Part shown: piece by piece, positions 1 to 58,068 of the stretch
Layout: each line of letters starts with the position of its first letter
Numbering within the stretch: the first letter of the stretch is position 1
Program-made: the position numbers and the translations under genes
DNA from: a bacterium
GTDB taxonomy: Bacteria; Oederibacteriota; CAKKQC01
Length of the DNA stretch: 64,000 nucleotides
Direction: 5' to 3'
Assembly (NCBI GenBank): GCA_919901855.1
Contig: CAKKQC010000001.1
Coordinates: forward strand, 190,995 to 254,994
The notes under the pieces: model-generated
What the model saw: only the letters and a program-made list of their open reading frames with translations
What the model was told of the DNA's origin: nothing
The model's database searches: none

Positions 1-69
1 CGCGACGATTCCGATCGTCGCGACCCCCATGACCCCAAGGCACAGCATGGCTTCGCGGAGCATCTTCAT
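1..69 (-). CDS. N-terminus of a secreted or membrane protein, cut by the window edge
   Basis: Only the first 23 codons are present, starting at the ATG at 69 (MKMLREAMLCL...). They form a hydrophobic stretch typical of a signal peptide or first membrane helix. The start is supported by a TAGGAT hexamer nine bases upstream, the same arrangement as at many genes in this window. It lies just downstream of the tandem FecR genes in the same direction, separated by a hairpin. It could be a third exported protein of that group, but its N-terminus is not similar to theirs and the function cannot be told. Confidence 0.5.
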   Translation of the reverse strand, partial: MKMLREAMLCLGVMGVATIGIVA

Positions 70-78
70 GGATTTCCT

Positions 79-84
79 ATCCTA
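79..84 (-). promoter_or_regulatory. -10 hexamer TAGGAT, nine bases before the start at 69
   Basis: TAGGAT is followed by nine bases and then ATG. This fits a leaderless or near-leaderless transcript. No convincing -35 box was found. Confidence 0.45.
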
Positions 85-97
85 GCACCAAACGGCA

Positions 98-125
98 GAC
101 CGGGGGGCCGCTGGGCCCCCCGGTC
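98..125 (-). terminator. 12-bp GC-rich hairpin after FecR gene 1
   Basis: GACCGGGGGGCC pairs perfectly with GGCCCCCCGGTC around a four-base loop. It lies between the stop of the FecR gene at 152 and the -10 box of the next gene, so it probably ends the FecR transcript. The T-tract after it on the minus strand is weak (TGCCGTTTGG). The same stem sequence recurs at 1567-1596 after the paralogue. Confidence 0.5.
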
Positions 126-151
126 ACAATACGCTTGCCCAGCCTTCTCTG

Positions 152-1537: not shown

Positions 1538-1547
1538 GGTAGCTTTC

Positions 1548-1553
1548 ATGTTA
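1548..1553 (-). promoter_or_regulatory. -10 hexamer TAACAT before FecR gene 1
   Basis: TAACAT, ten bases and ATG at 1537. It overlaps the alternative upstream ATG at 1549, which argues for the downstream start. Confidence 0.4.
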
Positions 1554-1566
1554 CCACTTGAAACAG

Positions 1567-1596
1567 GACCGGGGGGCCCGACATGGCCCCCCGGTC
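1567..1596 (-). terminator. 12-bp hairpin after FecR gene 2, same stem as at 98-125
   Basis: GACCGGGGGGCC / GGCCCCCCGGTC with a six-base loop, between the stop of FecR gene 2 (1620) and the promoter of FecR gene 1. The identical stems and near-identical flanks show that the tandem duplication included the downstream hairpin. Confidence 0.5.
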
Positions 1597-1619
1597 ACAA
1601 TCGCTTTGCCGGCCTTCAG

Positions 1620-3095
1620 CTAAGGAGTCGGCTGGCTCGGCGACACCGGGTTCTCGTCCCCCGTGCCCGGGGGCGTCACCGTCTCGGTGTCCTGCGTATT
1701 CGTCGTAGGCGGCGGCGTCACGTCGCTCAAGGGCGGAAGGGCCGGCAATTCCGGCAGGACCTCGCCCGGCGCGTACGCCGGTTCGGCGGGCGCCTCCGGC
1801 TCCGTCGCCTTCGGGGCGGTGGCCGGGGCCGCCGGTGCGGCGGGAGCCGCCGGCGCGTTCAGCACCGCGTTCGCTTGGGCCGCCGGCATCTGGGCCAGGA
1901 GCCCGCTCGAGCTCACGACGGCCGCCGAGCCCGCTCCGACGGTCTCCGTGCGTCCGCCCGAATCCACGACGGCCGAACCGGCCGTGACGGACACGACGGT
2001 GGTCACCGCGGGCGCCGCGCCCTTCACGTCCTCGGTCTTGGCGTCGTACGAGAACGACGTTCCCTCGCCCGCCTGCAGGGCCGTCTTCGTCCCCGCGAGG
2101 ACGGCCGAGCCGCCCGTCACGGTGACCTTCGCCCCCGCCGGCACCTCGTCGCCGGGCTGGACCTCGACGGTCTTCCCCCCCACGACGGCCGTGACCCGGC
2201 CCGTCCCGCCGACGACCTCGAGGCTCGTCCGCGGCGGCGCCCGGCGCGCCAGCTCGATCTTGCCCGTCACCGCGCTGGCCGAGACCATGTACCCGGCCCG
2301 CAGGACGCGCGTCTGCGAAGTCCCGATGTTGAAAACCCCGAGGTCCGTGCCGGCCGCGAGCGTGCCGACCCCGACGCCGCCGTCATCGCACCGGACCTCG
2401 ACCTTGCCCGCGATCGACCCCGGCGCAGGCGCGACCATGTCGAACATCGTGCCCTTGACCGCGCAGACCGTGCTCCCGGCCACGACGCCGAAGTTCTGGA
2501 CCTTCTCGGCCCCGGTGCGCCGGAGCATCGCGCGCATGGTGCCCGTCACGAGCTGGAGCAGGGTGTTCGTGCGCGTGGACTTGGAGCCCTTGAGCTGGGC
2601 GATCAGGATCTGGCTGTCGCCCTTGAGCCGGACGAGGTCCGTGGTCCCGAACCGGATGAACACCCGGCCGTTCCGCCCCGTGGTCACCATCGCCCCCTCG
2701 GGCAGGTCCATCCCCGCCGTGGCTTGGACGGCCTTGGTGGCCGGCTGGAACTCGACCCGGACGACCCCGACGACGGTCTCGATCCGGGCTCCGCCCGGCG
2801 CGGTCGCGACAGCACCCGCCGCTGCGGCGGGAACAGTGCCCGCGGCGACAGCCGCGGGAGCGGGTGCCGGCTTCGCGGCAACCGCCGCGGGCCTTGCGGC
2901 AACTGCGGCCTTAGCCGGCGCGGGCTTCGGCGCCGGAGCGGTCGAGACGGCGGGTGCTGACCCGGTTGGGGCCTTCGCCGGCGCGGGAACCGCCGCAGGC
3001 GCGGCGGACGGCGTCGCGGACGCTGCGGCCGCGGATGATGCCGCGTTCGCGGTAACTGCCAGGCACAGGGCCAAAGGAAGCAGGATGTGTTTCAT
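1620..3095 (-). CDS. FecR-domain secreted protein, copy 2
   Basis: A 491-residue paralogue of the gene at 152-1537, with the same order: signal peptide (MKHILLPLALCLAVTANA), Ala/Pro-rich linker to about residue 110, FecR domain (GAMVTTGRNGRVFIRFG) and the same Pro/Thr-rich tail. Long stretches are identical in protein and nearly so in DNA, so the duplication is fairly recent or kept similar by conversion. The ATG at 3095 is chosen over an upstream in-frame start. It begins a proper signal peptide and has TACACT nine bases before it, and the longer version would overlap the end of the preceding gene. Function is unknown; the position next to polysaccharide genes suggests an envelope role. Confidence 0.8.
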   Translation of the reverse strand: MKHILLPLALCLAVTANAASSAAAASATPSAAPAAVPAPAKAPTGSAPAVSTAPAPKPAPAKAAVAARPAAVAAKPAPAPAAVAAGTVPAAAAGAVATAPGGARIETVVGVVRVEFQPATKAVQATAGMDLPEGAMVTTGRNGRVFIRFGTTDLVRLKGDSQILIAQLKGSKSTRTNTLLQLVTGTMRAMLRRTGAEKVQNFGVVAGSTVCAVKGTMFDMVAPAPGSIAGKVEVRCDDGGVGVGTLAAGTDLGVFNIGTSQTRVLRAGYMVSASAVTGKIELARRAPPRTSLEVVGGTGRVTAVVGGKTVEVQPGDEVPAGAKVTVTGGSAVLAGTKTALQAGEGTSFSYDAKTEDVKGAAPAVTTVVSVTAGSAVVDSGGRTETVGAGSAAVVSSSGLLAQMPAAQANAVLNAPAAPAAPAAPATAPKATEPEAPAEPAYAPGEVLPELPALPPLSDVTPPPTTNTQDTETVTPPGTGDENPVSPSQPTP

Positions 3096-3102
3096 GGTTT
3101 TC

Positions 3103-4851
3103 CTAGTGTACCACACGCACCCACGGCCGCCGGGCGCGGCGCCAGGGCCGCAGCGCTGCGGCCACCGCAAGGAATTGCGCGCCATCCTTCTCGCGCCCCG
3201 TCCACCACAGCGCGGTGCCCGCGACCTCGGCCAGCCCCGCGTGGTCGGGCGTCCCCTTGAGTCCCCGCGCCGCGGCCGCCAGCGCCTGCCGGGCGAAGAG
3301 CCGCCGCGCCACGATGTTCTCGTCGCCGAGCCACAGGAGCGCGACGCCGAGCTCGCGCTCGTACCCCGGATGGCCGGGCGCGTACCCGAGGGCGCGCTCG
3401 TACAGCGCCGCCCGCGCCGCCAGATCCCCGTCCACGGCCCGGTGCGCGCACCACCAGCCGCCGAGCATGCGAGCCGTGCTCCAGGTCCCCCACAGCGCGA
3501 GCGCGACGAGCGCCGCCCGCCCGGGCCAGCCGGTCCGTTCCTGGGACGCCTCCTCCCGCCGCCGCATATCCCCGCGCGGCCGGGGCCGGAAGATGAGCCC
3601 CGCCGTGAGCAGGAAGACGGCCGCGTTCGCCGGACTCGCGAGGTTCAGTTCCGCCGACGCATGGGCCAGGAACGTGATCATCGCCGCGAGGGCCCCCCCG
3701 AGCAGGGGCCGGATCCCGGGCTCGTCCCACGCCCACCACGCCCGGATCTGCGAGACGATCTGGAGCAGGAGCCCGAGACCGAGGATGGCGCCCGCGACCG
3801 CGCCCCCACCCACGAGCAACTCGAGCCACTCGGCGTGGGCGTGGTCCACGGGCGCGGGTATGTCCGTCGCGTACGCCGCCTGGAAGGGCGCGAACGCGTA
3901 CTCGAACGCCCCCAGCCCGTACCCCCAGACCGGCCTCAGCTTGACCATGGGCCACGCGGCCTCCCAGATCCGGACCCGCATGGCGAACGACCCCCGGAAC
4001 GCCCCCGAGTTCTCCTTCATGTCCGCCAACCGCGGGAACGCGACGGCCAGGGCAACGTAGGTGGCGACGCAGATGAGCAGGGTCACGAACCACCGGTTCC
4101 GGGTGCGGCGGGGCGCGAACCCGAACGCCCCCACCACGCCCGTCCCCACCCCGGCAATGGCGAGCGAGTGGATGGCCCCGCGCGACTCGCAGAGCCAGAT
4201 CGCGAATCCCTGGAGAGCCAACAGGCAGAGCAGGAAGACCTGCGTTGTCCAGAGAGTCGCGAGCGCCCCGACCCGCCGGGAGCCCCGGTACCCGGCCGCC
4301 CGCGCCCAGATCAGCCCCGCCCCCACCGCGAAGGTCATGACCAGGAGCCCGCCGGCGTGGTTCTTGTAGTAATACGGGCCGAAGGGCATGAACCCGTCCG
4401 GAATCGGCCGGATCCCGTAGAAAGTCTCGGCGCCGCTCCCCATCTGCACGATCCCGATGACCGAGATGATCGTCCCCATGGCGAAGAGCGCCCACGCGGC
4501 GATCGAAGCGCGCCGCCTCGACTGGGCGACCGCCGCGGCGGTCCAGATCAGGCACGCATACGCGGCCCAGAGCCGGCCGGCTTCCGTCGTCGCCCAGCGC
4601 GAACTCGTGACCGGCCCCGTGACGGCCGTGATCGCGTGCGCCGGGTGACGCGCCTGCACCGCGGCGAGCACCGCGAGGCCCAGCATCCCCCACGTCAGCG
4701 GCGGCACCTCGCTCCAGCGAAACGGCCGGGTGAACGCCAGCACGGCCGCGAGGGAAAAAAGCGACATCTCGAGGAGTCCGGAGGACCACGGCTCCACGCA
4801 TCCGAACAGGAACGGCCCGAGGCAGACGGTGGCGAGCAGCCAGATGCTCAC
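3103..4851 (-). CDS. O-antigen ligase/polymerase-like membrane protein
   Basis: A 582-residue polytopic protein with about ten hydrophobic segments. It carries the Wzy_C/O-antigen ligase signatures: NHAGGLLVM near residue 165 and a periplasmic-loop region with WGYGLGAFE and DHAHAEWLELL near residues 305-345. The last ~150 residues are soluble and repeat-like (possible TPRs). Members polymerise or ligate polysaccharide on the periplasmic side of the inner membrane. The start is a GTG with TACACT seven bases upstream. It is followed by the FecR genes and preceded by the tyrosine autokinase, which supports a role in exopolysaccharide assembly. Whether it is a ligase (WaaL) or a polymerase (Wzy) cannot be told. 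Confidence 0.82.
   Translation of the reverse strand: MSIWLLATVCLGPFLFGCVEPWSSGLLEMSLFSLAAVLAFTRPFRWSEVPPLTWGMLGLAVLAAVQARHPAHAITAVTGPVTSSRWATTEAGRLWAAYACLIWTAAAVAQSRRRASIAAWALFAMGTIISVIGIVQMGSGAETFYGIRPIPDGFMPFGPYYYKNHAGGLLVMTFAVGAGLIWARAAGYRGSRRVGALATLWTTQVFLLCLLALQGFAIWLCESRGAIHSLAIAGVGTGVVGAFGFAPRRTRNRWFVTLLICVATYVALAVAFPRLADMKENSGAFRGSFAMRVRIWEAAWPMVKLRPVWGYGLGAFEYAFAPFQAAYATDIPAPVDHAHAEWLELLVGGGAVAGAILGLGLLLQIVSQIRAWWAWDEPGIRPLLGGALAAMITFLAHASAELNLASPANAAVFLLTAGLIFRPRPRGDMRRREEASQERTGWPGRAALVALALWGTWSTARMLGGWWCAHRAVDGDLAARAALYERALGYAPGHPGYERELGVALLWLGDENIVARRLFARQALAAAARGLKGTPDHAGLAEVAGTALWWTGREKDGAQFLAVAAALRPWRRARRPWVRVVH
3105..3110 (-). promoter_or_regulatory. -10 hexamer TACACT before FecR gene 2
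   Basis: TACACT lies nine bases before ATG 3095. The box sits inside the last codons of the preceding gene, whose stop is at 3103. Confidence 0.45.
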
Positions 4852-4858
4852 TTCAGTC

Positions 4859-4864
4859 AGTGTA
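4859..4864 (-). promoter_or_regulatory. -10 hexamer TACACT before the O-antigen ligase-like gene
   Basis: TACACT, seven bases and GTG at 4851. No Shine-Dalgarno site is visible. Confidence 0.4.
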
Positions 4865-10031: not shown

Positions 10032-10544
10032 TCATCCCGCGAACCTCTGGTACGTGAGGAAGAGCCGGGAGCCCATGATCAGGTGCACGATCTTCCACTT
10101 CATGATCACGGCCATGACCTTCACCCGGTACTGGACGACGGCCCACTTGAGGATGAAGTAGACGGGCAGGGCGAGGAGGACCGACAGCACGAGGCTCCCG
10201 AGCGTGAGCGTGTTATTGAACTTCGTCCACGGAATGACCGGCGTGTTGTACATCCCCGTCCACGTGGCCTTCAGTCCCGGGAGGGTCAGGAGCCAGTACC
10301 CGATCTTGTTCGAGAGGGGGTCCAGCAGGTACCCGACCCCCGAGAAGACGCCCCACGCCAGCATGCCCGACGTGAAGTTCACGCGCAGGACGATGAGCAG
10401 GCCCAGCACGATGAGGTTGTGCAGGCTCGTAAAGGGGGTCATGCCGATGATGAACCCCAGCGCCATACCCCCCGCGATCGCCTTTGGCGTCGCGTCCCTA
10501 TTCAGGATTCCCAGGAACTTGATGAGAAACTTCAGCGCCAGCAT
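10032..10544 (-). CDS. TIGR03546-type small membrane protein
   Basis: A 170-residue protein with four or so membrane segments, Gly-rich in the first half (MALGFIIGMTPF), resembling the DUF2062-like fold of the TIGR03546 family. These proteins are encoded beside TIGR03545 proteins, as here. The role is unknown; the pairing suggests an inner-membrane partner for the long periplasmic protein. The ATG at 10544 has TAAGAT nine bases before it and no SD, so this is probably the first gene of a leaderless two-gene transcript. Confidence 0.72.
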   Translation of the reverse strand: MLALKFLIKFLGILNRDATPKAIAGGMALGFIIGMTPFTSLHNLIVLGLLIVLRVNFTSGMLAWGVFSGVGYLLDPLSNKIGYWLLTLPGLKATWTGMYNTPVIPWTKFNNTLTLGSLVLSVLLALPVYFILKWAVVQYRVKVMAVIMKWKIVHLIMGSRLFLTYQRFAG

Positions 10545-10553
10545 CCGTTCGTT

Positions 10554-10559
10554 ATCTTA
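10554..10559 (-). promoter_or_regulatory. -10 hexamer TAAGAT before the TIGR03546-type gene
   Basis: TAAGAT, nine bases (AACGAACGG) and ATG at 10544. Confidence 0.45.
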
Positions 10560-14558: not shown

Positions 14559-16196
14559 CTACTTCACCGCCCCGGGGTTCGCCACGCAGCGGAAGCCGGT
14601 ATTGATCATCGTGTAGGCGGGATCGTCGTCCATGCGCGCCGCCGAGCGGCAGGTGTTTTCGCGATAGTCCCAGGACCCGCCGCGCAGGACGCGCCGCGTG
14701 CCGGTGGCCGGGCCCTGGGGGTCGTCGATCGGGCCGGTCTCGTAGTAGTGCTTGCCGAACCAATCCGCGCACCACTCGATCACGTTGCCGTGCATGTCAA
14801 ATAGCCCCCACGCGTTCGGGAGCTTGCGCCCCACCGGGTGGGGGTGTTTGTCCGAGTTCGCCTCGGTCCACGCGTAGTCGCCGAGCTTCTTCGGGTCGTC
14901 CCCGAAGCACCAGTTCCCGGTGCTCCCGGCCCGACACGCGTACTCCCACTCGGCCTCCGTGGGCAGTCGCTTGCCATAGTGCCGGGCGTAGTCAGCGGCG
15001 TCCTTCCAGCTCACCATGATCACGGGCTGGTCGCCGCGGCCCCATCCCTCGTCCTTGGGCTTCCGCCGGAACGTCCGCAGCGATGCGCGGCAGAACCGGT
15101 CGTACCGGTCGAAAGTCACCTCGAACGTATCCATATAGAAGGCGCCCACCTTCACGGGGTGCGGGGGGCGGTCGTCCAGGCGGTCCACCCCCATGATGAA
15201 CTCCCCCGCCGGGATCAGGACCATCGGCGCGCCGTCCCGGCCGATGATGGTCTTCGGCAGTCCGCCGCCCTCCGGGGAGGGGCCCTTCGACTCGAGGACT
15301 CGCTCAGGACTCGCAGGGCTCGTCACGAAGACGAACTCGCCCTCGCCGCTGCGGCCGACCTGGGGATCCTGGGCGGTGCGGAACCGCGACAGCGACGTCT
15401 GTGAGACGTTGGGCTTCACGTAGGCTGCGATCTCGTCGCTCGTAACGATCCCATCATGGTCCGCGTCCGCCGCTCCCGTGATCGCGGAAAGGAAGTAGCG
15501 CGTGAAGAGCCCCTGCCCCTGCCACTCGTGCGCCTCCTGCCCCGCCCCGCCTGCGGTCATGACCATGCGCACGCGTTTCCTCGTGACCTGGGCCAGGTAG
15601 TCGCTGAGCTGGGCCGAGAGCCCGAGTGCCCGCGTTGAGAGCGCGAGCCCGGAGTAGCAGGCGTCGGCGACGTACAGGACGTGCTTGCTCGGGTAGTCCT
15701 CGAACCACGCCGTGAGCTCGTTCATCGAGAGCCCTGAGGACCGCAGGCGGTTCCGGTCGCCGTCCACGGGCACGAGGTACCCGAGCGCCCGATCGCCCTC
15801 ACCGGTGGAGACGCCGTGCCCGGCGAAGTAGACGAGGACGCGGTCCTCCTTCCCCAGCTTGTTCGGGAGCTCGTCGCCCAGCACTTCCATGATCCGCTTC
15901 CGGGTCGCCTGCCCGTCCAGGAGCATCGTGACCGTGAATCCCTGAGCGGTCAGAGCCGCCGCGACCGTGCGGGCGTCGCGGACGGCACCGGTGAGCTTCG
16001 GCACGTTGGGGTTCAGGTACTGGTCGATGCCGATCACGACAGCGAAGGAGTGGTCGTAGATCCTGACGGCCCCCGCGAGCCCGCCCCGGCCGCCGGATGG
16101 CGCCTGGTAGACGACCGCCACGCCGCGGTCCGCGGCCGGGCAGAGAGCCGCCTGCGCCAGGAGACCGAACAGGGCGAGGCGCGCGGGAAGATTCAT
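14559..16196 (-). CDS. Caspase-like peptidase (C14) fused to a SUMF1/FGE-type domain
   Basis: A 545-residue exported or surface protein. A signal peptide (MNLPARLALFGLLAQAALC) is followed by a caspase-like domain at about 35-270 with the catalytic His in YFAGHG and Cys in DACYSG. A formylglycine-generating-enzyme/sulfatase-modifying-factor domain covers about 310-545 (IPAGEFIMG, LPTEAEWEYACRAG, DMHGNVIEWCADW, LRGGSWDY, NTGFRC). Many such SUMF1 domains lack enzyme activity and act as C-type-lectin-like binders. The fusion suggests a peptidase activated or targeted by ligand binding. A much longer frame exists, but ATG 16196 opens the signal peptide and has TAAGCT eight bases before it. Confidence 0.85.
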   Translation of the reverse strand: MNLPARLALFGLLAQAALCPAADRGVAVVYQAPSGGRGGLAGAVRIYDHSFAVVIGIDQYLNPNVPKLTGAVRDARTVAAALTAQGFTVTMLLDGQATRKRIMEVLGDELPNKLGKEDRVLVYFAGHGVSTGEGDRALGYLVPVDGDRNRLRSSGLSMNELTAWFEDYPSKHVLYVADACYSGLALSTRALGLSAQLSDYLAQVTRKRVRMVMTAGGAGQEAHEWQGQGLFTRYFLSAITGAADADHDGIVTSDEIAAYVKPNVSQTSLSRFRTAQDPQVGRSGEGEFVFVTSPASPERVLESKGPSPEGGGLPKTIIGRDGAPMVLIPAGEFIMGVDRLDDRPPHPVKVGAFYMDTFEVTFDRYDRFCRASLRTFRRKPKDEGWGRGDQPVIMVSWKDAADYARHYGKRLPTEAEWEYACRAGSTGNWCFGDDPKKLGDYAWTEANSDKHPHPVGRKLPNAWGLFDMHGNVIEWCADWFGKHYYETGPIDDPQGPATGTRRVLRGGSWDYRENTCRSAARMDDDPAYTMINTGFRCVANPGAVK

Positions 16197-16204
16197 GCCC
16201 GCTG

Positions 16205-16210
16205 AGCTTA
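16205..16210 (-). promoter_or_regulatory. -10 hexamer TAAGCT before the caspase-SUMF1 gene
   Basis: TAAGCT, eight bases and ATG 16196, in the 40-base gap after aroB. Confidence 0.4.
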
Positions 16211-16236: not shown

Positions 16237-17346
16237 TCAGGACGTCGTGAACCGATTCCGGACGACGCGCTCGACCAAGCGAAGAGGCACGCCCTCCCTG
16301 ATCCTGGTCTTGCCGATCCCGGTCGCAAGCACGAACCGGTTCTTCCCATTCACGAACTTCTTGTCCATCCAGAAGAAGTGCATGATCCTCGCCAAGTCAT
16401 GGTTCTTGATCCGCACGGGGAGTCCGATCCTGATCAACAGGTTCTCGATTCTCGCCGCCACGCTCCTGTCCAGCATGGCAAGCTCCACGGCGATGTCGTT
16501 GGCGCATACCATGCCGATCGACACGGCCTCGCCATGCCGGTAGGCGTAGCGGGACGCAGACTCCACGGCATGGCCGATCGTGTGGCCGTAGTTCAGGACC
16601 GTCCTGATGCCTTTGGTCTCGAACTCGTCCCGCCGGACGATATCCGCCTTGATCCGGTAGTTCGTGAGGACGACCTGCGTCATCACCTCCCTATTGAGGG
16701 AGAACACCTTGTCCACGTGGCTCTCGACGAGATCGAAGAGCCCAGGGGAACGGATTACGCCGTGCTTGACGACCTCGGCCAGGGCGGACCTCACCTCTCT
16801 CTTGCTCAGGGTCTTCAGGAGGTCGAGATCTGCGTGCACCAGCCTGGGCTGATGGAAAGCCCCGACCGTGTTCTTGATCCCGTCGAGGTTGACGGCGGTC
16901 TTGCCCCCTATCCCGCAGTCGACGAAAGCCAGGAGGGTCGTCGGCACCTGGACATAGTCGACCCCTCTCCGGTACGTGGCGGCCACGAAACCGCCGAGAT
17001 CGCCGACCACGCCACCGCCCAGATTGACCACGAAGAGCTTCTCGTCCTCGCTCGCGCAGAACCCGACCGCTTGCCGCATGATCCGCCGGTACGAGGCGAA
17101 GCTCTTGTTCTTCTCCCCATCCGGCAGATAGGCGACCCTGATGTCCCTGTAACCCCCGCGATTCAGCGCTTTCAGGAGATCACGCAGGTACAGTTTGCCG
17201 ATCGCGGGACTCGTGATGACGAATGCCTTCCCGCGCAGGCCGAGACGCCTGATGCGCCGGCCAAGCTGGCCCAGGATGCCGAAGCCCACGAGGATGTCGT
17301 AGTCTCTCCCGCCCCCGACCCGGACCCGGATCTTGTTCACGAGCAT
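16237..17346 (-). CDS. aroB: 3-dehydroquinate synthase family protein
   Basis: A 369-residue NAD- and metal-dependent cyclase; AroB turns DAHP into 3-dehydroquinate in the shikimate pathway. Visible family features are the nucleotide-binding GGGVVGDLGGFVAATYRRG, CGIGGKTAVNLDGIKN, and the metal ligands in LAEVVKHGVI, NYGHTIGHAVES and HGEAVSIGM. It stands alone here with no other aro genes. CGIGGKTAVNL differs from the usual SSVGGKTGVN of housekeeping AroB, so another sugar-phosphate cyclase of the same superfamily is possible. Its base composition looks slightly less GC-rich than its neighbours. ATG 17346 has TAGGAT six bases upstream. Confidence 0.8.
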   Translation of the reverse strand: MLVNKIRVRVGGGRDYDILVGFGILGQLGRRIRRLGLRGKAFVITSPAIGKLYLRDLLKALNRGGYRDIRVAYLPDGEKNKSFASYRRIMRQAVGFCASEDEKLFVVNLGGGVVGDLGGFVAATYRRGVDYVQVPTTLLAFVDCGIGGKTAVNLDGIKNTVGAFHQPRLVHADLDLLKTLSKREVRSALAEVVKHGVIRSPGLFDLVESHVDKVFSLNREVMTQVVLTNYRIKADIVRRDEFETKGIRTVLNYGHTIGHAVESASRYAYRHGEAVSIGMVCANDIAVELAMLDRSVAARIENLLIRIGLPVRIKNHDLARIMHFFWMDKKFVNGKNRFVLATGIGKTRIREGVPLRLVERVVRNRFTTS

Positions 17347-17352
17347 GCTTCC

Positions 17353-17358
17353 ATCCTA
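17353..17358 (-). promoter_or_regulatory. -10 hexamer TAGGAT before aroB
   Basis: TAGGAT, six bases (GGAAGC) and ATG 17346. The hexamer itself could also serve as a weak SD, so the leader is uncertain. Confidence 0.35.
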
Positions 17359-19012: not shown

Positions 19013-19642
19013 TCAGAACAGGGTCTGGGGCACGAAGATGACATCCTCGGGCTGGAGCACGAGGTCCTTGTCCTTGTCGCCCTTCGTCACGTCGTTGACG
19101 GGCACCGTAATGGTCTCCTGCCCGCCCGCCGCCGTCTTGCGCACGACCCGGACGCTGTTGCCGGCCGCGTACTTGGTGAATCCCCCCGCCTGCGCGATGG
19201 CCTCGACGCACGTGAGCGGCGAGGTCGTGGGGATGTCGATGGCGCCGGGCCGGGTGACCTCGCCGAGGATGACGACGCGGCGGGCGTGGGATTCCTTGAC
19301 GCTCACGGAGACGAACGGGTTGACGACGAAGGCGTTAAGTTTGGCGCGGAGCGCGGCCTCGGCCTGGGCGAGCGTGAGCCCCGCGATCTCGACCTCGCCG
19401 ATGAGCGGGAAGTTGATGCGGCCGTCGGCGGTGACGCGGGCGGGTCGGGTAAGGTCGGCTTCGCCGTAGACGGAGATGTCGAGGAGGTCCTGGGGCGAGA
19501 TGCGGTACTCGGCGGCGACCGCCTTGGCGAGATCCGTCGGCAGGTCGGTAGCCGGAGCCTTGACGGCCGACTTGCCTCCACCGCAGGCGGCGAGCCCAAT
19601 GCCGAGGAGAACCGCGCATACCGGAACCAAGCGTTGCCTCAT
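19013..19642 (-). CDS. Polysaccharide export lipoprotein (Wza/GumB family, SLBB domain)
   Basis: A 209-residue outer-membrane lipoprotein. The signal peptide ends in lipobox LAAC, followed by a Poly_export domain ([37 protein letters not shown]) and one SLBB domain ([36 protein letters not shown]). It is shorter than E. coli Wza and has a single SLBB, as in many minimal exporters. It would form the periplasmic channel working with the Wzc-type kinase at 4.9-6.7 kb. ATG 19642 is chosen over the in-frame GTG at 19645 because TAAGAT lies exactly nine bases before it. Confidence 0.9.
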
Positions 19643-19651
19643 CACCGTGTC

Positions 19652-19657
19652 ATCTTA
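19652..19657 (-). promoter_or_regulatory. -10 hexamer TAAGAT before the export lipoprotein gene
   Basis: TAAGAT, nine bases and ATG 19642. It lies directly after the terminator of the upstream gene, so this gene and araA form a separate transcript. Confidence 0.45.
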
Positions 19658-19730: not shown

Positions 19731-20927
19731 TTACAGGATGTAGTCGGCTGAAAGCGAGAGCTGGTTGTCCGTGTACTTGTAGGTGTCGAAGTTGGACGAC
19801 CGCGTGCGCATCAGGTACCCGAGCTTGAACGTTTGCTTCTCGATCAGGTGATACGAGAGGTTGAGCCCAACCGTCATGTTCGTATCCCGGCGACGTGCGT
19901 CCAGAAGCGTGCCGTCCGCGAGGAACGCGGCGCGCGCGTCGGGGTACTGGTCGACGCCGTAGGCGCCGAGGACCTGGACGCTGAACCGCTTGTTGAGTTC
20001 CTTCGTGACCGCGAGCGAGCCGCCGGTCTGCATGTAGTACCGGTTGAACACGGACTCGACGAAGCTGCGCCCACCCGCGAGCGAGACGCTGATGGACGAA
20101 GGTCCGTCCCACTTCAGGGACGCCGTGAACCCGCCGGTCGTGTACTCGCTCGTCTCGCCCGTCAGCGTCTGGCTGTACTTGCGCGAGACGGTGTTGGCCT
20201 CGACCAGCCCCGTGATCCGGGACGTGATCTCGCCCTCGACTCCGGCACCGATGAGGCTGCCCGTCGAGTCGTTGAACGAGGACGCGGACTTGAAGTTCAC
20301 GTTCGACGACTTGAAGAACCCGAATACCTTCGTCTTGGCCGACGGCCGAAGCCCAAGCCGGATTCCGGCGAGAAGCTCGTTGCGGTCGAGGAGCGGAGCA
20401 AGGCTCGCCACACGGTAGTGATGGATCGTGTCGATGACGCGCAAGCCGGCGTAGAGCTTCGGCCCGACGGGGAGGTCGAACAGGAGCGCGGCGTCGTTCT
20501 GGTTCCGCAGCGACCGCGCCGTGAGCTCGGACGAGGCGGGGTCGGCCGTGATCCGGAACTGGTCGTCGAGGCCGATCAGCCCCTCGGGCATGTACTCGAC
20601 CTGCGTGCTCAGGGCCGCCGTCTGCTGGACCGCGTTGTTGACCTTCTGGTAGACGGAGTAGATCTGCGGCGCGATCTCGTAGCCGACATTGAGGGACGCC
20701 TTCTTGCCCTTGATCCCGATGCCGAGCGCGGCGGACGGCTCGGCGATCCACGCGCTCGTCGCATTCTTGGGCGCGAGGAAGATGTTGGAGTCATTGGTGA
20801 CCCCGATGCCGATCTTGGGGCGAATCTGGAGGCCGCCCTCATTGGCGCCCGCAGCGGCCAGCGCCGCCCCGGTCAGCAGACACAGGACCGTCACGAGAGA
20901 ACTATGCCTCAAGGTCATCGTTGTCAT
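19731..20927 (-). CDS. Outer-membrane beta-barrel protein, exopolysaccharide-associated type
   Basis: A 398-residue protein with a signal peptide (LVTVLCLLTGAALAAA) and an all-beta mature part of alternating strands. It opens with GGLQIRPKIGIGVTNDSNIF, a pattern typical of the outer_membrane beta-barrel (BBP2-type) proteins found in polysaccharide loci, and ends in LSLSADYIL. The final residue is Leu rather than the usual Phe. A conduit or accessory role for polysaccharide at the outer membrane is inferred from the adjacent Wza-type gene. ATG 20927 has TACAAT nine bases upstream; a strong terminator follows. Confidence 0.75.
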   Translation of the reverse strand: MTTMTLRHSSLVTVLCLLTGAALAAAGANEGGLQIRPKIGIGVTNDSNIFLAPKNATSAWIAEPSAALGIGIKGKKASLNVGYEIAPQIYSVYQKVNNAVQQTAALSTQVEYMPEGLIGLDDQFRITADPASSELTARSLRNQNDAALLFDLPVGPKLYAGLRVIDTIHHYRVASLAPLLDRNELLAGIRLGLRPSAKTKVFGFFKSSNVNFKSASSFNDSTGSLIGAGVEGEITSRITGLVEANTVSRKYSQTLTGETSEYTTGGFTASLKWDGPSSISVSLAGGRSFVESVFNRYYMQTGGSLAVTKELNKRFSVQVLGAYGVDQYPDARAAFLADGTLLDARRRDTNMTVGLNLSYHLIEKQTFKLGYLMRTRSSNFDTYKYTDNQLSLSADYIL

Positions 20928-20936
20928 GGTTCAGGC

Positions 20937-20942
20937 ATTGTA
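20937..20942 (-). promoter_or_regulatory. -10 hexamer TACAAT before the outer-membrane barrel gene
   Basis: TACAAT, nine bases (GCCTGAACC) and ATG 20927; no SD. Confidence 0.5.
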
Positions 20943-29869: not shown

Positions 29870-29943
29870 TGGGCGGTACAGGACTCGAACCTGTGACCCC
29901 TTCCATGTCAAGGAAGTACTCTAGCCAGCTGAGCTAACCGCCC
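29870..29943 (-). tRNA. tRNA-Val (GAC)
   Basis: Cloverleaf: acceptor GGGCGGT/ACCGCCC, D arm GCTC...GAGT, anticodon stem CTTCC/GGAAG with loop TTGACAT (anticodon GAC, reading GUC), T arm ACAGG-TTCGAGT-CCTGT, discriminator A. The CCA end is not encoded. Confidence 0.97.
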
Positions 29944-30048
29944 GTATTTTAACTAGCTTGCCTTTGCCAACACTTCCGCCCGGCCTCGGCTAACCCTCGG
30001 CCGGCGTGGACCTCGCTCTCGCTCGGCCCAACCTCACGGCAATCAGAC

Positions 30049-30123
30049 TGGAGGCGGGAGTCGGAATCGAACCGACGTATAACGGTTTTGCAGACCGTCG
30101 CCTTGCCTCTTGGCTATCCCGCC
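30049..30123 (-). tRNA. tRNA-Cys (GCA)
   Basis: Cloverleaf: acceptor GGCGGGA/TCCCGCC, D arm GCC...GGC, anticodon stem ACGGT/ACCGT with loop CTGCAAA (anticodon GCA), T arm GTCGG-TTCGATT-CCGAC, discriminator T and an encoded CCA. Its 5' 44 bases are repeated exactly upstream at 30195-30238. Confidence 0.96.
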
Positions 30124-30177
30124 GTTGTCATCCACTGCACCAAGCCGCACATCCGCACCGGCCGTCGCCGGACGTTG

Positions 30178-30194
30178 CCCCCCGAAGCGGGGGG
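30178..30194. other. Stable 7-bp hairpin between the tRNA-Cys copies
   Basis: CCCCCCG pairs with CGGGGGG around a three-base loop, directly after the truncated tRNA copy on the minus strand. It might stop transcription or processing of the fragment, but no T-tract follows. Confidence 0.35.
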
Positions 30195-30238
30195 TAACGG
30201 TTTTGCAGACCGTCGCCTTGCCTCTTGGCTATCCCGCC
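30195..30238 (-). repeat. Exact 44-base copy of the 5' part of tRNA-Cys
   Basis: Identical to 30080-30123: the acceptor 5' strand, D arm and whole anticodon arm. It stops just after the anticodon stem, where a hairpin replaces the variable region and T arm. It cannot fold as a full tRNA, so it is a tRNA-derived remnant in direct orientation upstream of the intact gene. Confidence 0.85.
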
Positions 30239-30876: not shown

Positions 30877-33258
30877 TTAGAGGCGGGGGGAGGAGGCTTC
30901 GATGCGGCGCCCGAGCTCGAGGGCGCGGGCATTCTTGGGCTCCAGCTTGAGCGCCTCGCCGATCGCGTGCCGGGCCGTCCCCAGGTCGTGGAGCACCCAG
31001 GCCGAGAGCGCGATACCCACCCAGGCCTCTGCGAACGTCGGGTCCAGCCGCACGGCCTCCCCGTCCTGCGCCAGGGCATCCTTGAACCGCTCGAGCATGC
31101 CGAAAGCGGCGGCCAGGTTGTGCCGGATGATGGGCACCGCGGGGCGCAGCCTAACCGCCTCACCGAAGGCCTGGGCGGCCTGGCGGTAGTCCCGGCGCTC
31201 GAACGCCACCTGACCCAGGATGATCCAGGCGGTCGCGAAATCCGGCATCCGAACCGTCGCCTCGCGCATCCTTCGGACCACCAGCCCGCGATCCACGGCA
31301 AGCCCCTCCCAGAGCCCGCCGGACCCGGGATCCAGCGCCTCCGTGCGCGCGCCGGCCTTCGCGCCTTCCTCGAACCGGCCCGCCAGGGCGAAGAACACGG
31401 CTTCCCGGTATGGCCAGGCCGAATTGTGGGGCTGAAGCGCTTCCGCCCGGCCGTACGCCTCGGCGGCCGCCGCGAACTCGCCCCGGCCCGCGTGAATCCC
31501 GGCGACCTCCACCCAGGCCGTGATGAAGTTCGGGGCCTGCTTCAGCAGGGCTTCGTATCGCGCCATGGCCTGGTCCGGCCGGCCGTTCTCCCGGTCGAAG
31601 TCCGCGCGATCCGCGAGGGCGTCGGCCAGGTACGGATGGAGCCTCAGCCGGACGCTGAGCATCTCGTCCGCGAGCGCCTCATCATGCTTCTTGATCGCGA
31701 TCCGCGCGAGCCAGCGCGCCACGCGATAGTCGTGGGGGAGCATGAGCCGGGCGCGGAGGGCGATCTCGTACGCGACGGGCGGGCGGTTCGCCTCGAGCTG
31801 GCCGCGGACGTGACGGAGGTAGCCGCCCCCGACGAGGTCCGCTCCGGCGAGGCACGCGGTCCCGAGGCCAAAGACCAGGATCGCGACACCGGCCAGGGTC
31901 GAAGCGTGGGCGAGGATACTGGCCGGCGGTGGCGACAACGGGGGCGGCGCCGGATGCTGGGGGTCGATCGGCGGAACAGCCGGAGCGTCACCGCGGGTCG
32001 CCGGCAACTCCGTTCGCAGGCGACCCAAGCTCACCCCCATCACGGTCCAGAACAGGATCGCGGTCGGCACGATCTGGAACGGAAAGTTCACCCAACTGTA
32101 GATGAACGCGCCCGCGATCGCGGTTCCGATCGCCCACTGGTTCCACCACTCGGCGCGACGACTGGCGGCCGCGAGGACCGCCAGCCCGCGAATCCACGGA
32201 ACGAGCCACGCGATCAGGCCCCAGAGGAAGAGGGCGACACCGACGAGACCGAGCTCGGCCGCGAACTGGAGCAGCTCGCTGTGCGCGTGCTCGCTGTAGG
32301 CATACGGCAGGAACTGGGCGAGGTGGAACTTCGCGCCCTCGGACTGGTGCCGCGGAAACTGGAACTTGAAGGCGCCCGTACCCCATCCGGTGAACGGTCG
32401 TTCACGTGCCTCAGCCAGCGCGACGCTCCACAGGAACCGCCGTCCTGTGGCGTCGTACCCGCCCACCGAGACGATGCTCCCCAGCCGGCCCCGGAGCAAG
32501 GGCGAGGTCGCGATTAGCGTCACGGCGATGACGCCCGCGACGGCTGCCGCCCGGCCAAGCCAGCGTCGCTCCATGGGGGCCAGCCCGCCGCCCCGCCAGA
32601 TCCAGAAGGCCCCCCAGCAGCCGCAAGCCAGCGAGGCCAACCAGGCGCCGCGCACGTGGCTGAGCAGAAAACCCATGGCCAGCAAGGGCGCCAGGGCCGC
32701 CTCAGCCCGCCCCGCCCCTGTGCCCGCGGCCATCGAAGCCGCGAGCAGGGGCATCACGACGAGCAGGTGGCCGGCGTAGTAGTCGGGGTTGCCCAGCGTT
32801 CCAAAGGCCCGGCCGAAACTGATACTCCAGGGCATGGGGTCGTACCCGGCCGCCTGCGCGAGCCCGTAGACCGTGCAGAGGCCGGTGGCCCAGATGGCGG
32901 CGGCGCGCAGGCGGGGCCACGACCGCGCGGCGGCAATCCCGAGCCAGAGGGCCGACACGCTCCCCGCCAGCTCGAGGCCCCGGCGCAGGGAATCCCACGG
33001 GTTCACGGACCAGCCGCAGGCGGCGAGCGTCCAGCCGGCGAAGAGGGCCCATGGCAGGGTCGTGCGATCGAGCCGGGGGGCAAGGCGCCCCCTTGCCAGC
33101 CGCCATCCGGCGAGCGCGAGCACGGGCGCCAGGCAGACGGCCTGGGCAATCCGCCACCCGGAGAAGAAGACGTCCTCGACGACAGTGCAGAGGGTGAGGG
33201 GGACCAGTCCGAGCAGGGCGAGCGCGCACAGGCGCACGAGGGGTCCGCCGGGTCCCAT
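30877..33258 (-). CDS. O-antigen ligase-like membrane protein with C-terminal TPRs
   Basis: A 793-residue inner-membrane protein. About eleven hydrophobic segments to residue ~470 carry Wzy_C/ligase motifs: FGTLGNPDYYAGHLLVVM near 150, WGTGAFKFQFP and SEHAHSELLQFAAELG near 310-340. The C-terminal 300 residues are a TPR array (repeats with N-A-Y-x-E-A-L spacing, e.g. QAMARYEALLKQAPN and AAQAFGEAVRLRP). It transfers or polymerises a glycan on the periplasmic side; the TPRs suggest partner binding, perhaps a pilin- or protein-glycan ligase. It is unrelated in position to the polysaccharide locus at 3-21 kb. ATG 33258 has TACAAT nine bases upstream. Confidence 0.82.
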   Translation of the reverse strand: MGPGGPLVRLCALALLGLVPLTLCTVVEDVFFSGWRIAQAVCLAPVLALAGWRLARGRLAPRLDRTTLPWALFAGWTLAACGWSVNPWDSLRRGLELAGSVSALWLGIAAARSWPRLRAAAIWATGLCTVYGLAQAAGYDPMPWSISFGRAFGTLGNPDYYAGHLLVVMPLLAASMAAGTGAGRAEAALAPLLAMGFLLSHVRGAWLASLACGCWGAFWIWRGGGLAPMERRWLGRAAAVAGVIAVTLIATSPLLRGRLGSIVSVGGYDATGRRFLWSVALAEARERPFTGWGTGAFKFQFPRHQSEGAKFHLAQFLPYAYSEHAHSELLQFAAELGLVGVALFLWGLIAWLVPWIRGLAVLAAASRRAEWWNQWAIGTAIAGAFIYSWVNFPFQIVPTAILFWTVMGVSLGRLRTELPATRGDAPAVPPIDPQHPAPPPLSPPPASILAHASTLAGVAILVFGLGTACLAGADLVGGGYLRHVRGQLEANRPPVAYEIALRARLMLPHDYRVARWLARIAIKKHDEALADEMLSVRLRLHPYLADALADRADFDRENGRPDQAMARYEALLKQAPNFITAWVEVAGIHAGRGEFAAAAEAYGRAEALQPHNSAWPYREAVFFALAGRFEEGAKAGARTEALDPGSGGLWEGLAVDRGLVVRRMREATVRMPDFATAWIILGQVAFERRDYRQAAQAFGEAVRLRPAVPIIRHNLAAAFGMLERFKDALAQDGEAVRLDPTFAEAWVGIALSAWVLHDLGTARHAIGEALKLEPKNARALELGRRIEASSPRL

Positions 33259-33267
33259 GGCGGGCCC

Positions 33268-33273
33268 ATTGTA
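33268..33273 (-). promoter_or_regulatory. -10 hexamer TACAAT before the TPR ligase-like gene
   Basis: TACAAT, nine bases (GGGCCCGCC) and ATG 33258. It is divergent from, and only 13 bases away from, the -10 box of the plus-strand gene at 33302. Confidence 0.5.
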
Positions 33274-33286: not shown

Positions 33287-33292
33287 TAGAAT
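33287..33292 (+). promoter_or_regulatory. -10 hexamer TAGAAT before the propeller lipoprotein gene
   Basis: TAGAAT, nine bases (GGGAGAACC) and ATG 33302. GGGAG in the gap could also act as an SD. Confidence 0.45.
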
Positions 33293-33301
33293 GGGAGAAC
33301 C

Positions 33302-34285
33302 ATGAAGACCCGCATCCTGATTCTCGCCCTCGTCGCCGGCACGCTCGCCGGATGCCTCAACCGCGTCTCCTGGCTGGCCGACGGCCGGCGGCTCGTCTAC
33401 CTCCAGGATCGCGCCGTCTGGCTCATCACGCTCGACGGGCAGCGCACGAAGCTCGGCGACACGGGGACCCTCGCCGACCCCGAGGTCGTGGCGGCCCCGC
33501 GGGGCGGGCTGATCGCGCTCGCGGGCGCTTCCGGCGGGCGCGGCCGCGTGACGATCCTGACCGAGGGCGGCACGATCGTCTGGACGGGCACGATGCCGGG
33601 AGAAGAGGTCCAGCTCCTGCCGGGCGGGTGGAGTCCCGATGGCGCCCGCCTCCTCGTGTGGGGCGGCAAGAAATCACTGCTGATCGAGACTTCCACGGGG
33701 ACCGCCAGCATCCTCGAGACCGGCGACGCCCCCCGGTTCGCGGCCGCCGGCGACCTCATCTCGCTCCGGGCAGGGAAGTCCGGGCCGACGGTGCTCGAAC
33801 GGCGTCCCGCCGCGGGCGCCGTCACCGCGACCGCCTGGAAACTCCCGGCGGGACTGACCGAACCCTCGGCCCTGTTCCTCACGGATGACGGCACCGCGGC
33901 GTGGTGGAAGGGGCGCCGGGGCGACGTCGAGGTGACGGTCCTCGCGGGCGCCGACGGGCGGCTCGTGTTCTCGAACACGCGGACGCTCGTGGCCGCAGGG
34001 CCGGACGGCCGGTCCTACCTGACCGAGGACGGCGGGTACGCGCTCATGAGCGCGGACCGCCCCACGCTGAACCTCAACCCGGCGTACAACGCCCTGCTCC
34101 GGATGGACATCAACTGGCAACTGGCGGACCCCCGGGCCGCGGCGGAGAAGTACGACGCGGGGGAACTCCTCAAGAGCGCGCCCGCGTTCTCGCCGGACGG
34201 CACCCGCGCCGCGATCCTGACGCCGCACCTGCTCTGCGTCGTGACCATCAAGACGGGGGAAGCCGTCGCCATCGCAAAATGGTGA
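33302..34285 (+). CDS. Unknown lipoprotein with a beta-propeller-like fold
   Basis: A 327-residue exported lipoprotein (MKTRILILALVAGTLAGC; lipobox LAGC). The mature part shows repeated four-strand blades with propeller-like sequences (SWLADGRRLVYLQD, GWSPDGARLLVW, PAFSPDGTRAAILT), resembling TolB/WD40-like or quinoprotein-like propellers. No catalytic motif is visible. It is divergent from the TPR ligase-like gene with a 43-base shared promoter region, and convergent with rplS. A scaffold role at the envelope is a guess. Confidence 0.7.
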   Translation: MKTRILILALVAGTLAGCLNRVSWLADGRRLVYLQDRAVWLITLDGQRTKLGDTGTLADPEVVAAPRGGLIALAGASGGRGRVTILTEGGTIVWTGTMPGEEVQLLPGGWSPDGARLLVWGGKKSLLIETSTGTASILETGDAPRFAAAGDLISLRAGKSGPTVLERRPAAGAVTATAWKLPAGLTEPSALFLTDDGTAAWWKGRRGDVEVTVLAGADGRLVFSNTRTLVAAGPDGRSYLTEDGGYALMSADRPTLNLNPAYNALLRMDINWQLADPRAAAEKYDAGELLKSAPAFSPDGTRAAILTPHLLCVVTIKTGEAVAIAKW

Positions 34286-51130: not shown

Positions 51131-51652
<522 letters not shown>

Positions 51653-51667
<15 letters not shown>

Positions 51668-52333
51668 GCCCCGCGATCCTTCAAGGATGCAGTCTATACG
51701 CAACTGGCCCGCATCGGGAAGGCGGTTGCCAGCCCGAAACGCCTCGAGTTATTGGACCTGCTCGCGCAGGGGAGGCATACCGTCGAGCGCCTCGCCGAAA
51801 TGTCCGGGATGAGCGTTGCCAACGCTTCCCAACATCTCCAGGCGTTGCGACGTGTCAGGCTGGTCGAGCGTGAGAAACGGGGCCTTCACGTCCACTACCG
51901 CCTGGCCGGCAGCGATGTGGCGGGCTTCTTCCTTCGCATGCGGGCGCTTGCCGAGACGCAGTTGTCGGAAATCGAGGAAGCCCGGCGGCAATTCTTCGAG
52001 GACAAGAGCACCGCCGAAGCGGTTGGGCCGAGGGACCTGTTAAGGCGGGTTCGCAAAGGTGAGGCGGTGCTCATCGATGTGCGGCCCGAGGAGGAGTACC
52101 GCGAAGCGCACATTCCGCATGCCATTTCCATGCCGCTGGAGGCGCTGAAGAAGCGCCTGAGAGTATTGCCGCGCAATCGGGAGATCGTGGCCTATTGTCG
52201 CGGACCCTACTGCGTCCTGGCCGTTGACGCGGTTCGGACACTCAGGAAACGCGGTTATCGTGCGGTCCGCCTTGAAATGGGTGTTCTGGAGTGGAGGGAA
52301 GAGGGCATGGTATTGGCAACAGGGCCTGCCTGA
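51653..52333 (+). CDS. ArsR-family repressor fused to a rhodanese domain
   Basis: A 226-residue regulator. Residues ~10-95 are a winged helix (IGKAVASPKRLELLDLLAQG, ERLAEMSGMSVANASQHLQ, REKRGLHVHYRL). Residues ~120-220 are a rhodanese domain (VRKGEAVLIDVRPEEEYREAHI split) with active-site loop AYCRGPYC. The DNA-binding part has no cysteine, unlike the dithiol sensors BigR/SqrR, so sensing probably uses the rhodanese Cys carrying a persulfide. It autoregulates through the palindrome over its start and controls the sulfur genes that follow. Confidence 0.9.
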
Positions 52334-55588: not shown

Positions 55589-55595
55589 GACGACG

Positions 55596-55617
55596 CCGGG
55601 GGCCCGTACGACCCCGG
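55596..55617. terminator. Weak hairpin between the convergent sulfur operons
   Basis: CCGGGG-N10-CCCCGG in the 39-base gap between the trans-sulfuration gene and the response regulator. No T-tract, so only a candidate bidirectional terminator. Confidence 0.35.
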
Positions 55618-55627
55618 ACCGAGCGGC

Positions 55628-57001
55628 CTACTCCCTAGCCGGGCCCTTTCCACCGATACCGTACTTCTCCATGCGGTAGATCAGCGTGGCGCGCGTGAGG
55701 CCGAGGAGGTCCGCAGCCCGGGTCTGGTTGCCGCCGGTCCGGTCGAGCGCGGCCTCGATCAGCCGCCGCTCGAGGTCCTCGAGCACGATCCCGCCCTCCG
55801 GCAGGGCGAATGCCGCTGGCGGCGCGCCCGGCACGCGGATCTCCTCCGGCAGCAGGTCGGACCCGATCGTGCGCCGGTCGCCGAGCAGCACGAGCGCGCG
55901 CTCGAGCGCGTGCTCGAGCTCGCGCACGTTCCCGGGCCACGCGTACCGCGCGAAGAGCTCCAGGACGGACGGCTCGACCGAGACGTCGGCGCGCCCCCGG
56001 CGCTCGAGGAAGTGCCGGCACAGGAGCGGGAGATCGTCCCGGCGCTCGCGCAGGGGCGGCATCCGCACCTGGATCACGTTGATCCGGAAGTACAGGTCCT
56101 CGCGGAAGGCGTTGCGCGCCACGGCCTCCTTGAGGTCCGTCTTGCTCGCCGCCACGATCCGGACGTCCACGGGGATTGGGCGGGTGCCGCCGACGCGCTC
56201 GACCTCGCGCTCCTGGACGGCCCGCAGCAGCTTGGCCTGCATGGGAGCCGGCATCTCGCCGATCTCGTCCAGGAACAGTGTCCCGCCCCCCGCCCGCTCG
56301 AACCGGCCCTGGTGGTCCGCGACCGCGCCGGTGAAGGCGCCCCGGACGTGGCCGAACAGCTCGCTCTCCATCAGGCTCTCGGGCACCGCGGCGCAGTTCA
56401 CGGCCACGAACGGGCCGTCCGCCCGCGGCGAGAGCGCGTGGACGCTGCGGGCGGCCAGTTCCTTGCCTGTCCCGCTCTCGCCCACGAGCAGGACCGTGGC
56501 CTCCGACCCCGCCGCCTGGCGTAGCACCTCGAGCGCCGCGCGAAAGGCGGCCGATTCCCCGACGAAGTCGCCCGGCCGGAAGAATTCGCGCAGGCGGCCC
56601 CGGAGCACGCGGTTCTCGGATCGGACGCGCCCGACCTCGATCGCGCGCTCAAGGACGAGCGCCATCTCGTCCATGTCGAACGGTTTGACGAGGTAGTGCG
56701 CCGCCCCCAGCTTCATCGCCTCGACCGCGGACTCGACCGACCCGTGGGCCGTCATTACCACGACCGGCGGCCGCTCGCCGCCGGCCCCCGCCAGTTCGCG
56801 GAGGATCTCCATCCCGGTCATCTCCGGCAGGGCGAGGTCCAGGAGCACGGCGTCCGCGCCGCGCCGTCCCAGCGCCTCCCAACCCCGGCGGCCGTCCGCC
56901 GCGGCCTCGACCTCATACCCCTTCCCATCGAGGGCGATCCGGAGGACCGTCGCGAGGCTGGCGTCATCCTCGATCACGAGAATCCGGCGCCGCGCGGTCA
57001 C
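55628..57001 (-). CDS. Sigma-54-dependent response regulator (NtrC/ZraR type)
   Basis: A 457-residue activator. Receiver domain at 1-120 (ILVIEDDASLATVL; phospho-Asp in LLDLALPEMTG; MTAHGS). AAA+ domain at about 140-380 with Walker A GESGTGKE, the sigma-54-contacting GAFTGA loop and Walker B GGTLFLDEIGEM. A Fis-type helix-turn-helix lies at the C-terminus (TRAADLLGLTRATLIYRMEK). The start is GTG 57001, overlapping the kinase stop (GTGA). A longer upstream frame is only overlap with the kinase. It is the natural candidate to drive the sigma-54 promoters near 39 kb. Confidence 0.95.
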   Translation of the reverse strand: MTARRRILVIEDDASLATVLRIALDGKGYEVEAAADGRRGWEALGRRGADAVLLDLALPEMTGMEILRELAGAGGERPPVVVMTAHGSVESAVEAMKLGAAHYLVKPFDMDEMALVLERAIEVGRVRSENRVLRGRLREFFRPGDFVGESAAFRAALEVLRQAAGSEATVLLVGESGTGKELAARSVHALSPRADGPFVAVNCAAVPESLMESELFGHVRGAFTGAVADHQGRFERAGGGTLFLDEIGEMPAPMQAKLLRAVQEREVERVGGTRPIPVDVRIVAASKTDLKEAVARNAFREDLYFRINVIQVRMPPLRERRDDLPLLCRHFLERRGRADVSVEPSVLELFARYAWPGNVRELEHALERALVLLGDRRTIGSDLLPEEIRVPGAPPAAFALPEGGIVLEDLERRLIEAALDRTGGNQTRAADLLGLTRATLIYRMEKYGIGGKGPARE

Positions 57002-58053
57002 GCCGCACCTCCCGGCAGGTCGAGCCGCGCCTCGGTACCGCCGCCCTCGGCGTCGGCGAGCTCGAGACTCCCGCCGTGCGCCGCCACGATCCGCTTCGCC
57101 ATCGGCAGGCCGAGCCCCGTGCCCCCCTCGCGGGTGGTCACGAACGGCTCGAACAGCCGCCCCCGGACCTCGGCCGGCAGTCCCGGCCCGGCGTCGCGGA
57201 CGGTCACGCGGACGCTCCGTCCCCGGACGGCGACGGACACCCGCACCTCGCCCCCTGCGGGAGAAGCCTGGACGGCGTTGAGGAGGAGGTTGAGCAGGGC
57301 CTGTTTGAGCCGCGTCGGATCCGCGGATACCGACGGCGCACCCGGAGGCGCGTCCACGCGGACGGTCACGGACCGGGGGGCGGCCGAGTGGGTCACGAGC
57401 GCGACGGCCTCGGCGACGACGGCGGGCACGTCGCAGGCCGTCCGGACAAGCTTGGGAGGCCGCGCGTACTCGAGGAACTCGCGGACGAGGTCGTCCAGCC
57501 GAGCGCTCTCCCGGGCGACTATCCCGAGCAGCTCGTCCCGGGTTGCCTCCGGCGGATTCCCCTTGCGGAGTTGGGCGGCGGCTCCCGCGATCGAGGCCAG
57601 CGGGTTGCGGACCTCGTGCGCCATGCCCGAGGCCAGCGTCCCCAGGCTCTTGAGCTGATCGGTGCGCAGGAGGGCATCCTGCTGGCGCCGGAGCGACGCG
57701 GACAGGCTCCCCGTCAGCCCGCCCACGGCGGCGTACATGGCCATCTCGAAGACGGCGTCCCAGGTCTGCGTCGGGATCTCGTCCCAGCGCTGGACGACGT
57801 GGGGAGCGTAGAGCGCGATCGTGACCACGGCCGCCGCCAGCCCGCCGCGTACGCCCCAGAGCAGGGCGGCCGACACGACGGGCACGTAGTAGAGCCGCCG
57901 CAGGACGCCGTGCAGGATGTGCATGTGGTGGGTCGCCGGGGTGACGTAGTGCAGGAGCGTGATCGCGACGAGCGGCACGGTCACGAGCCAGAGGCCGGGC
58001 GGGGCCAGCCACAGACGCGCCGGGCCGAACGCGGAACCGAGCGTTTTCCTCAT
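56998..58053 (-). CDS. Membrane sensor histidine kinase
   Basis: A 351-residue kinase. Four or five hydrophobic segments in residues 15-130 with very short loops, so it has no large periplasmic sensor and probably senses within the membrane. HisKA motif GMAHEVRNPLASI near residue 148 (phospho-His), then HATPase boxes LNLLLNAVQAS, VRDAGPGLP, GGTGLGLPMAKRIV. ATG 58053 has TATGAT nine bases upstream, so the pair may be transcribed separately from cysK, 36 bases upstream. Cognate of the adjoining response regulator. Confidence 0.93.
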   Translation of the reverse strand: MRKTLGSAFGPARLWLAPPGLWLVTVPLVAITLLHYVTPATHHMHILHGVLRRLYYVPVVSAALLWGVRGGLAAAVVTIALYAPHVVQRWDEIPTQTWDAVFEMAMYAAVGGLTGSLSASLRRQQDALLRTDQLKSLGTLASGMAHEVRNPLASIAGAAAQLRKGNPPEATRDELLGIVARESARLDDLVREFLEYARPPKLVRTACDVPAVVAEAVALVTHSAAPRSVTVRVDAPPGAPSVSADPTRLKQALLNLLLNAVQASPAGGEVRVSVAVRGRSVRVTVRDAGPGLPAEVRGRLFEPFVTTREGGTGLGLPMAKRIVAAHGGSLELADAEGGGTEARLDLPGGAA

Positions 58054-58062
58054 ATTCAAGCC

Positions 58063-58068
58063 ATCATA
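58063..58068 (-). promoter_or_regulatory. -10 hexamer TATGAT before the histidine kinase
   Basis: TATGAT, nine bases (GGCTTGAAT) and ATG 58053, in the short gap after cysK. Confidence 0.5.

Follow-up and report, generated by a model that had tools for sequence, protein, structure and literature searches.

Predicted -10 promoter boxes against gene start codons, with an exact second spacing at nine bases, in a probable relative of Coatesbacteria

Genes in which a TANNNT hexamer lies by the start codon and the Shine-Dalgarno (SD) site is absent have been described in Actinobacteria and Deinococcus-Thermus (PMC3160421, PMC3898074, PMC12340547), and the genome analyzed here shares with them both of these features as well as the high GC content, the occurrence at leading genes, the coexistence with SD-led genes and a weak or absent -35. 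In D. radiodurans the -10 peak is found 6-7 bp ahead of the ORF (Zhong et al. 2025, PMC12340547), and in bacterial genomes generally the peak lies at about 12 bp when the first T is taken as the reference (Zheng et al. 2011, PMC3160421). The known systems peak at about 6-7, whereas the present genome adds an exact second peak at nine. As far as a light literature search shows, genes of this kind are known already, while the lineage and the exact spacing of nine appear to be new; promoter-at-start expression would in this way be extended to one family of an uncultured phylum. Deinococcus-Thermus possess an outer membrane. The initial annotation had considered the presence of such genes in a diderm bacterium surprising, an argument that is weak, since leaderless genes led by TA hexamers have been reported in several diderm phyla (Zheng et al. 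2011, PMC3160421).

The window, a stretch of 64,000 nucleotides, belongs to a 4.68-Mb assembly of 91 contigs with approximately 70% GC (G000), whose DnaK shares 82% identity with its counterpart in Candidatus Coatesbacteria isolate nzgw597, the other matches listed reaching no more than 74%. Based on this identity, G000 is probably an uncultured relative of Coatesbacteria. A total of 1,055 starts were called in 1.59 Mb of G000 (34% of the genome) with a home-made caller whose only inputs are coding potential and start-codon type, the upstream sequence being unseen, and the bases separating the TANNNT hexamer from the start codon are referred to as the spacer. Deinococcus, Thermus and Rhodococcus plasmids served as control lineages in an identical pipeline; two further genomes of the same phylum, G006 (41% GC stretches) and G010 (38% GC), yielded zero gene calls and lie outside the comparison.

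All ten hexamers quoted in the initial annotation were found at their starts in the window, and the nine-base spacer claimed for eight of these starts was confirmed in each. On the minus strand, boxes with spacer 9 precede the ATG codons of a gene that runs past the window edge (TAGGAT, 69-84), a FecR-domain gene at 1620-3095 (TACACT, 3095-3110), a DUF2062 gene at 10032-10544 (TAAGAT, 10544-10559), a beta-barrel porin-like gene at 19731-20927 (TACAAT, TG-extended, 20927-20942), a Wzy_C/TPR gene at 30877-33258 (TACAAT, 33258-33273) and a histidine kinase gene at 56998-58053 (TATGAT, 58053-58068). To these is added the polysaccharide-export gene at 19013-19642, where TAAGAT (19642-19657, minus strand) has spacer 9 relative to the ATG and spacer 6 relative to an in-frame GTG at 19645. 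The eighth case, TAGAAT on the plus strand (33287-33302), precedes the ATG of the gene at 33302-34285, which is divergent to the Wzy_C/TPR gene and separated from it by 43 bp; the TACAAT of the latter is kept in the relative G001. Shorter spacers are found on the minus strand before the GTG of an O-antigen ligase-like gene at 3103-4851 (TACACT, spacer 7, 4851-4864, with TGT immediately ahead of the box), the ATG of a caspase-like/FGE-sulfatase gene (TAAGCT, TG-extended, spacer 8, 16196-16210) and the ATG of a 3-dehydroquinate synthase gene at 16237-17346 (TAGGAT, spacer 6, 17346-17358), and on the plus strand before the ATG of a gene encoding an ArsR-type HTH and a rhodanese at 51653-52333 (TAGTAT, spacer 6, 51641-51653). 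These 12 starts, among which those at 16196 and 17346 add to the ten quoted, are convincing and a few others, such as 50906 and 1537, are doubtful, so the initial figure of at least 15 was slightly generous. With regard to gene content, the gene at 14559-16196 (minus strand) fuses a Peptidase_C14 (caspase-like) domain to an FGE-sulfatase domain behind its own box, the region 3103-33258 holds genes for the synthesis and export of polysaccharides (two O-antigen ligase-like, Wzz/kinase-like, a sugar transferase and an SLBB-domain export protein), and three clustered tRNA matches, two strong and one at threshold, are located at 29870-30238 (minus strand).

Beyond the window, the upstream TANNNT plot proposed in the initial annotation displays positional peaks at spacers 6-9 in the 1.59-Mb sample. 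TANNNT occurs at spacers 5 to 11 in 8, 40, 34, 21, 43, 8 and 7 genes, respectively, against a background of 4.6 per position, and its occurrences at 9, 6 and 7 rank first, second and third among 64 XYNNNZ patterns at ten positions. When nearby in-frame starts are allowed, the counts at spacers 6, 7, 8 and 9 reach 60, 57, 29 and 59 against a background of approximately 12-13, an excess of about 150 genes, or about 14% (one in seven) of the 1,055 starts. Decoy hexamers are flat in the G000 sample, except for those overlapping the -10 consensus. Spacer 9 exceeds spacers 8 and 10 (p=4e-6); its count was inflated in an initial 448-kb sample of G000 (26 versus 9 and 7), which the 1.59-Mb sample put right. 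In the controls, spacers 6, 7, 8 and 9 are represented by 8, 4, 3 and 1 genes in Deinococcus, 15, 5, 2 and 2 in Thermus and 5, 4, 2 and 0 in Rhodococcus, and the ratio of spacer 9 to spacers 6-7 is 43 versus 74 in G000 and 3 versus 41 in the pooled controls (Fisher p=8e-5). The exact second peak at nine is found in G000 and in its same-family relative and is near absent in the three control lineages. A single duplicated gene family behind this peak was ruled out, as 55 spacer-9 genes fall into 49 protein clusters and their upstream DNA is unrelated. A non-canonical start codon at -3 was likewise rejected for this class, the triplet being canonical in 2 of 55 genes and one mismatch from ATG in 8 of 55.

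The reading of the hexamer as a promoter placed at the start is supported by these peaks and by its sequence surroundings. When 188 starts are aligned on the hexamer, position -2 is G in 62% and position -3 is T in 35%, corresponding to an extended -10, and the -35 signal is weak, its matches showing enrichment only at spacings of 17 and 18. TG is found ahead of the box in 57 of the 188 (30%), compared with 5.4% for the remaining TANNNT sites (p=4.5e-27) and with the 7% reported for M. tuberculosis (Cortes et al. 2013, PMC3898074). The promoter of the G000 rRNA operon is TTGACA-18-TACAAT, also with TG, and TACAAT is the most frequent hexamer at TA starts in this genome. The TG extension, a -35 located 17-18 bp away and an identical -10 in the rRNA promoter together indicate that the hexamer is a sigma-70-type -10 box rather than a translation signal, and promoter-at-start transcription is a well-supported prediction for approximately 14% of G000 genes.

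We hypothesize that housekeeping sigma-70-type -10 boxes immediately adjoin the start codons of leading genes. At spacers 6-7, and probably 8, the polymerase would begin at the first base of the start codon, and the resulting leaderless mRNA would be translated by ribosomes recognizing a 5'-terminal AUG or GUG, a predicted mode of ribosome loading. At spacer 9 it would start on the usual seventh base after the box, that is at -3, producing a leader of one triplet, and operon-internal genes would depend on ordinary SD sites. Taken as a whole, this arrangement is very likely in our opinion. In the spacer-6 class, C is present at -1 in 68% of the genes and the purine (A/G) of the start codon is the seventh base past the box; for spacer 9 this base corresponds to -3, where a purine is found in 77% versus 53% of other genes (p=0.0025), together with YR at -4/-3 in 47% versus 26% (p=0.005). 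This base composition suggests that spacer-9 transcripts start at -3 and carry a leader of 3 nt, with moderate strength only, since several positions were tested; one polymerase behavior with two leader lengths, 0 and 3, would be its simplest reading, to be held with the same moderate confidence.

Alternatively, the spacer-9 class may be strictly leaderless too, with transcription starting on the A of the ATG, ten bases below the -10, across a long discriminator, and the purine at -3 serving otherwise. A pyrimidine at -1, found in 70% versus 56% (p=0.08), would be compatible with such a start, as would the requirement of mycobacteria for a 5'-terminal RTG in leaderless translation (PMC4633059), a rule that a 3-nt leader would breach and that counts against a start at -3. 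However, the purine and YR signals fall on the seventh base, which is also the distance observed in the spacer-6 class, spacer 8 is rarer than spacer 9 even though it needs a shorter stretch, and spacer 9 is not used by the three control lineages; strict leaderlessness of this class is unlikely in our view. The strict leaderlessness claimed initially for all these starts fits spacers 6-7, whereas the spacer-9 transcripts, with a start at -3 indicated by composition, are probably not strictly leaderless. We tentatively propose that the family may use two fixed registers, with leaders of 0 and of exactly one triplet, and that its ribosomes may tolerate one triplet between the 5' end and the start codon. 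The exact second spacing would then stand in clean contrast with the mycobacterial need for a 5'-terminal start codon.

It is very improbable that the real starts lie downstream and that the hexamers are ordinary promoters followed by leaders. The starts are predictions, with alternative in-frame candidates in several genes; nevertheless, the enrichment depends on the frame and on the precise start codon, with no TANNNT peak ahead of out-of-frame start codons in the G000 sample, the caller is blind to upstream sequence, and an ortholog pair with the same N-terminus (58% identity) retains a -10 box ahead of the shared start codon, the spacer being 9 in one member and 7 in the other. Starts preceded by a -10 box at 6-9 bp may be called with greater confidence in gene annotation.

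An SD site is found at 10 of the 188 TA starts (5%) versus 286 of the 866 other starts (33%; p=2e-17), in agreement with the earlier remark that TANNNT starts are mostly without SD, and the SD sites described at operon-internal genes were confirmed. The share of TA starts is 40% among divergent genes, 19% among co-directional genes at least 25 bp apart and 6% among operon-internal genes. The 3' end of the G000 16S rRNA, GGATCACCTCCTTTCT, carries an intact anti-SD CCTCC, so SD-led initiation coexists with TA starts. A non-SD, A/T-type ribosome site would explain why the hexamer occupies the usual SD place and replaces the SD, and AT-rich non-SD sites occur in part of FCB bacteria (PMC9581028), but this least probable reading is largely refuted by the TG of the extended -10, by a -35 lying exactly 17-18 bp away, by the occurrence of this box in the rRNA promoter and by the near absence of the hexamer from operon-internal genes.

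Of the 19 divergent pairs separated by 20-50 bp, 17 display one or more TA starts and 8 display two, whereas for pairs more than 100 bp apart the corresponding figures are 19 of 54 and 1 of 54. Some divergent gaps of 19-27 bp are made up of a single near-palindromic -10 box common to both genes, flanked by a short spacer on each side, for instance CATGGACCGTATCATAGAAGGAATG, and -10 boxes overlapping on opposite strands are found in G000 at C10:22827/22847 and C1a:168587/168613, among others. Bidirectional promoters of Salmonella (PMC10268837, citing Warman et al. 2021) share overlapping near-symmetrical -10 boxes and divergent transcripts. In contrast to these, the shared box in G000 occupies the greater part of the 19-27 bp that separate the start codons, and both predicted mRNAs would be leaderless or nearly so; opposite-strand starts of bidirectional promoters are 7-25 bp apart, and the G000 geometry would allow a predicted distance of approximately 20-26 bp. 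At two loci, C10:22827-22847 (L204) and C1a:171067-171087 (L120), divergent genes 19 bp apart hold one shared near-palindromic -10 box that would serve the start codons of both.

In G001, the only same-family relative sampled, fragmentary and with an estimated contamination of 6%, TANNNT is found 4, 3, 3 and 5 times at spacers 6, 7, 8 and 9 against a background of 0.15, with a ratio of spacer 9 to spacers 6-7 of 5 versus 7. No TANNNT signal was detected in the sampled stretches of G004 (68% GC, SD at 39%) and G007 (53% GC), each from another family, and 23 pooled GC-rich loci from other phyla displayed a slight TANNNT excess at most. Since the two other families sampled rely on SD, one of them at equal GC, the trait was apparently gained or kept in one family only, and it seems to follow family rather than GC alone or phylum as sampled. 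Conservation of TA starts at single orthologs is patchy: the ortholog of the polysaccharide-export gene in G001 has no TA start, and 3-dehydroquinate synthase was not found in the sampled stretches of G001, its orthologs in other families being without a TA start at the likely start. Two minor observations concern the G000 genes themselves. GTG is the start codon in 20 of 54 genes of the spacer-6 class versus 18 of 134 of the spacer-7 to -9 classes in the sample, and ribosomal protein S8 (L001, G000:C19:70554-70940) scores 116 bits against its family, compared with 154-176 bits for full-length S8 in other genomes of the phylum.
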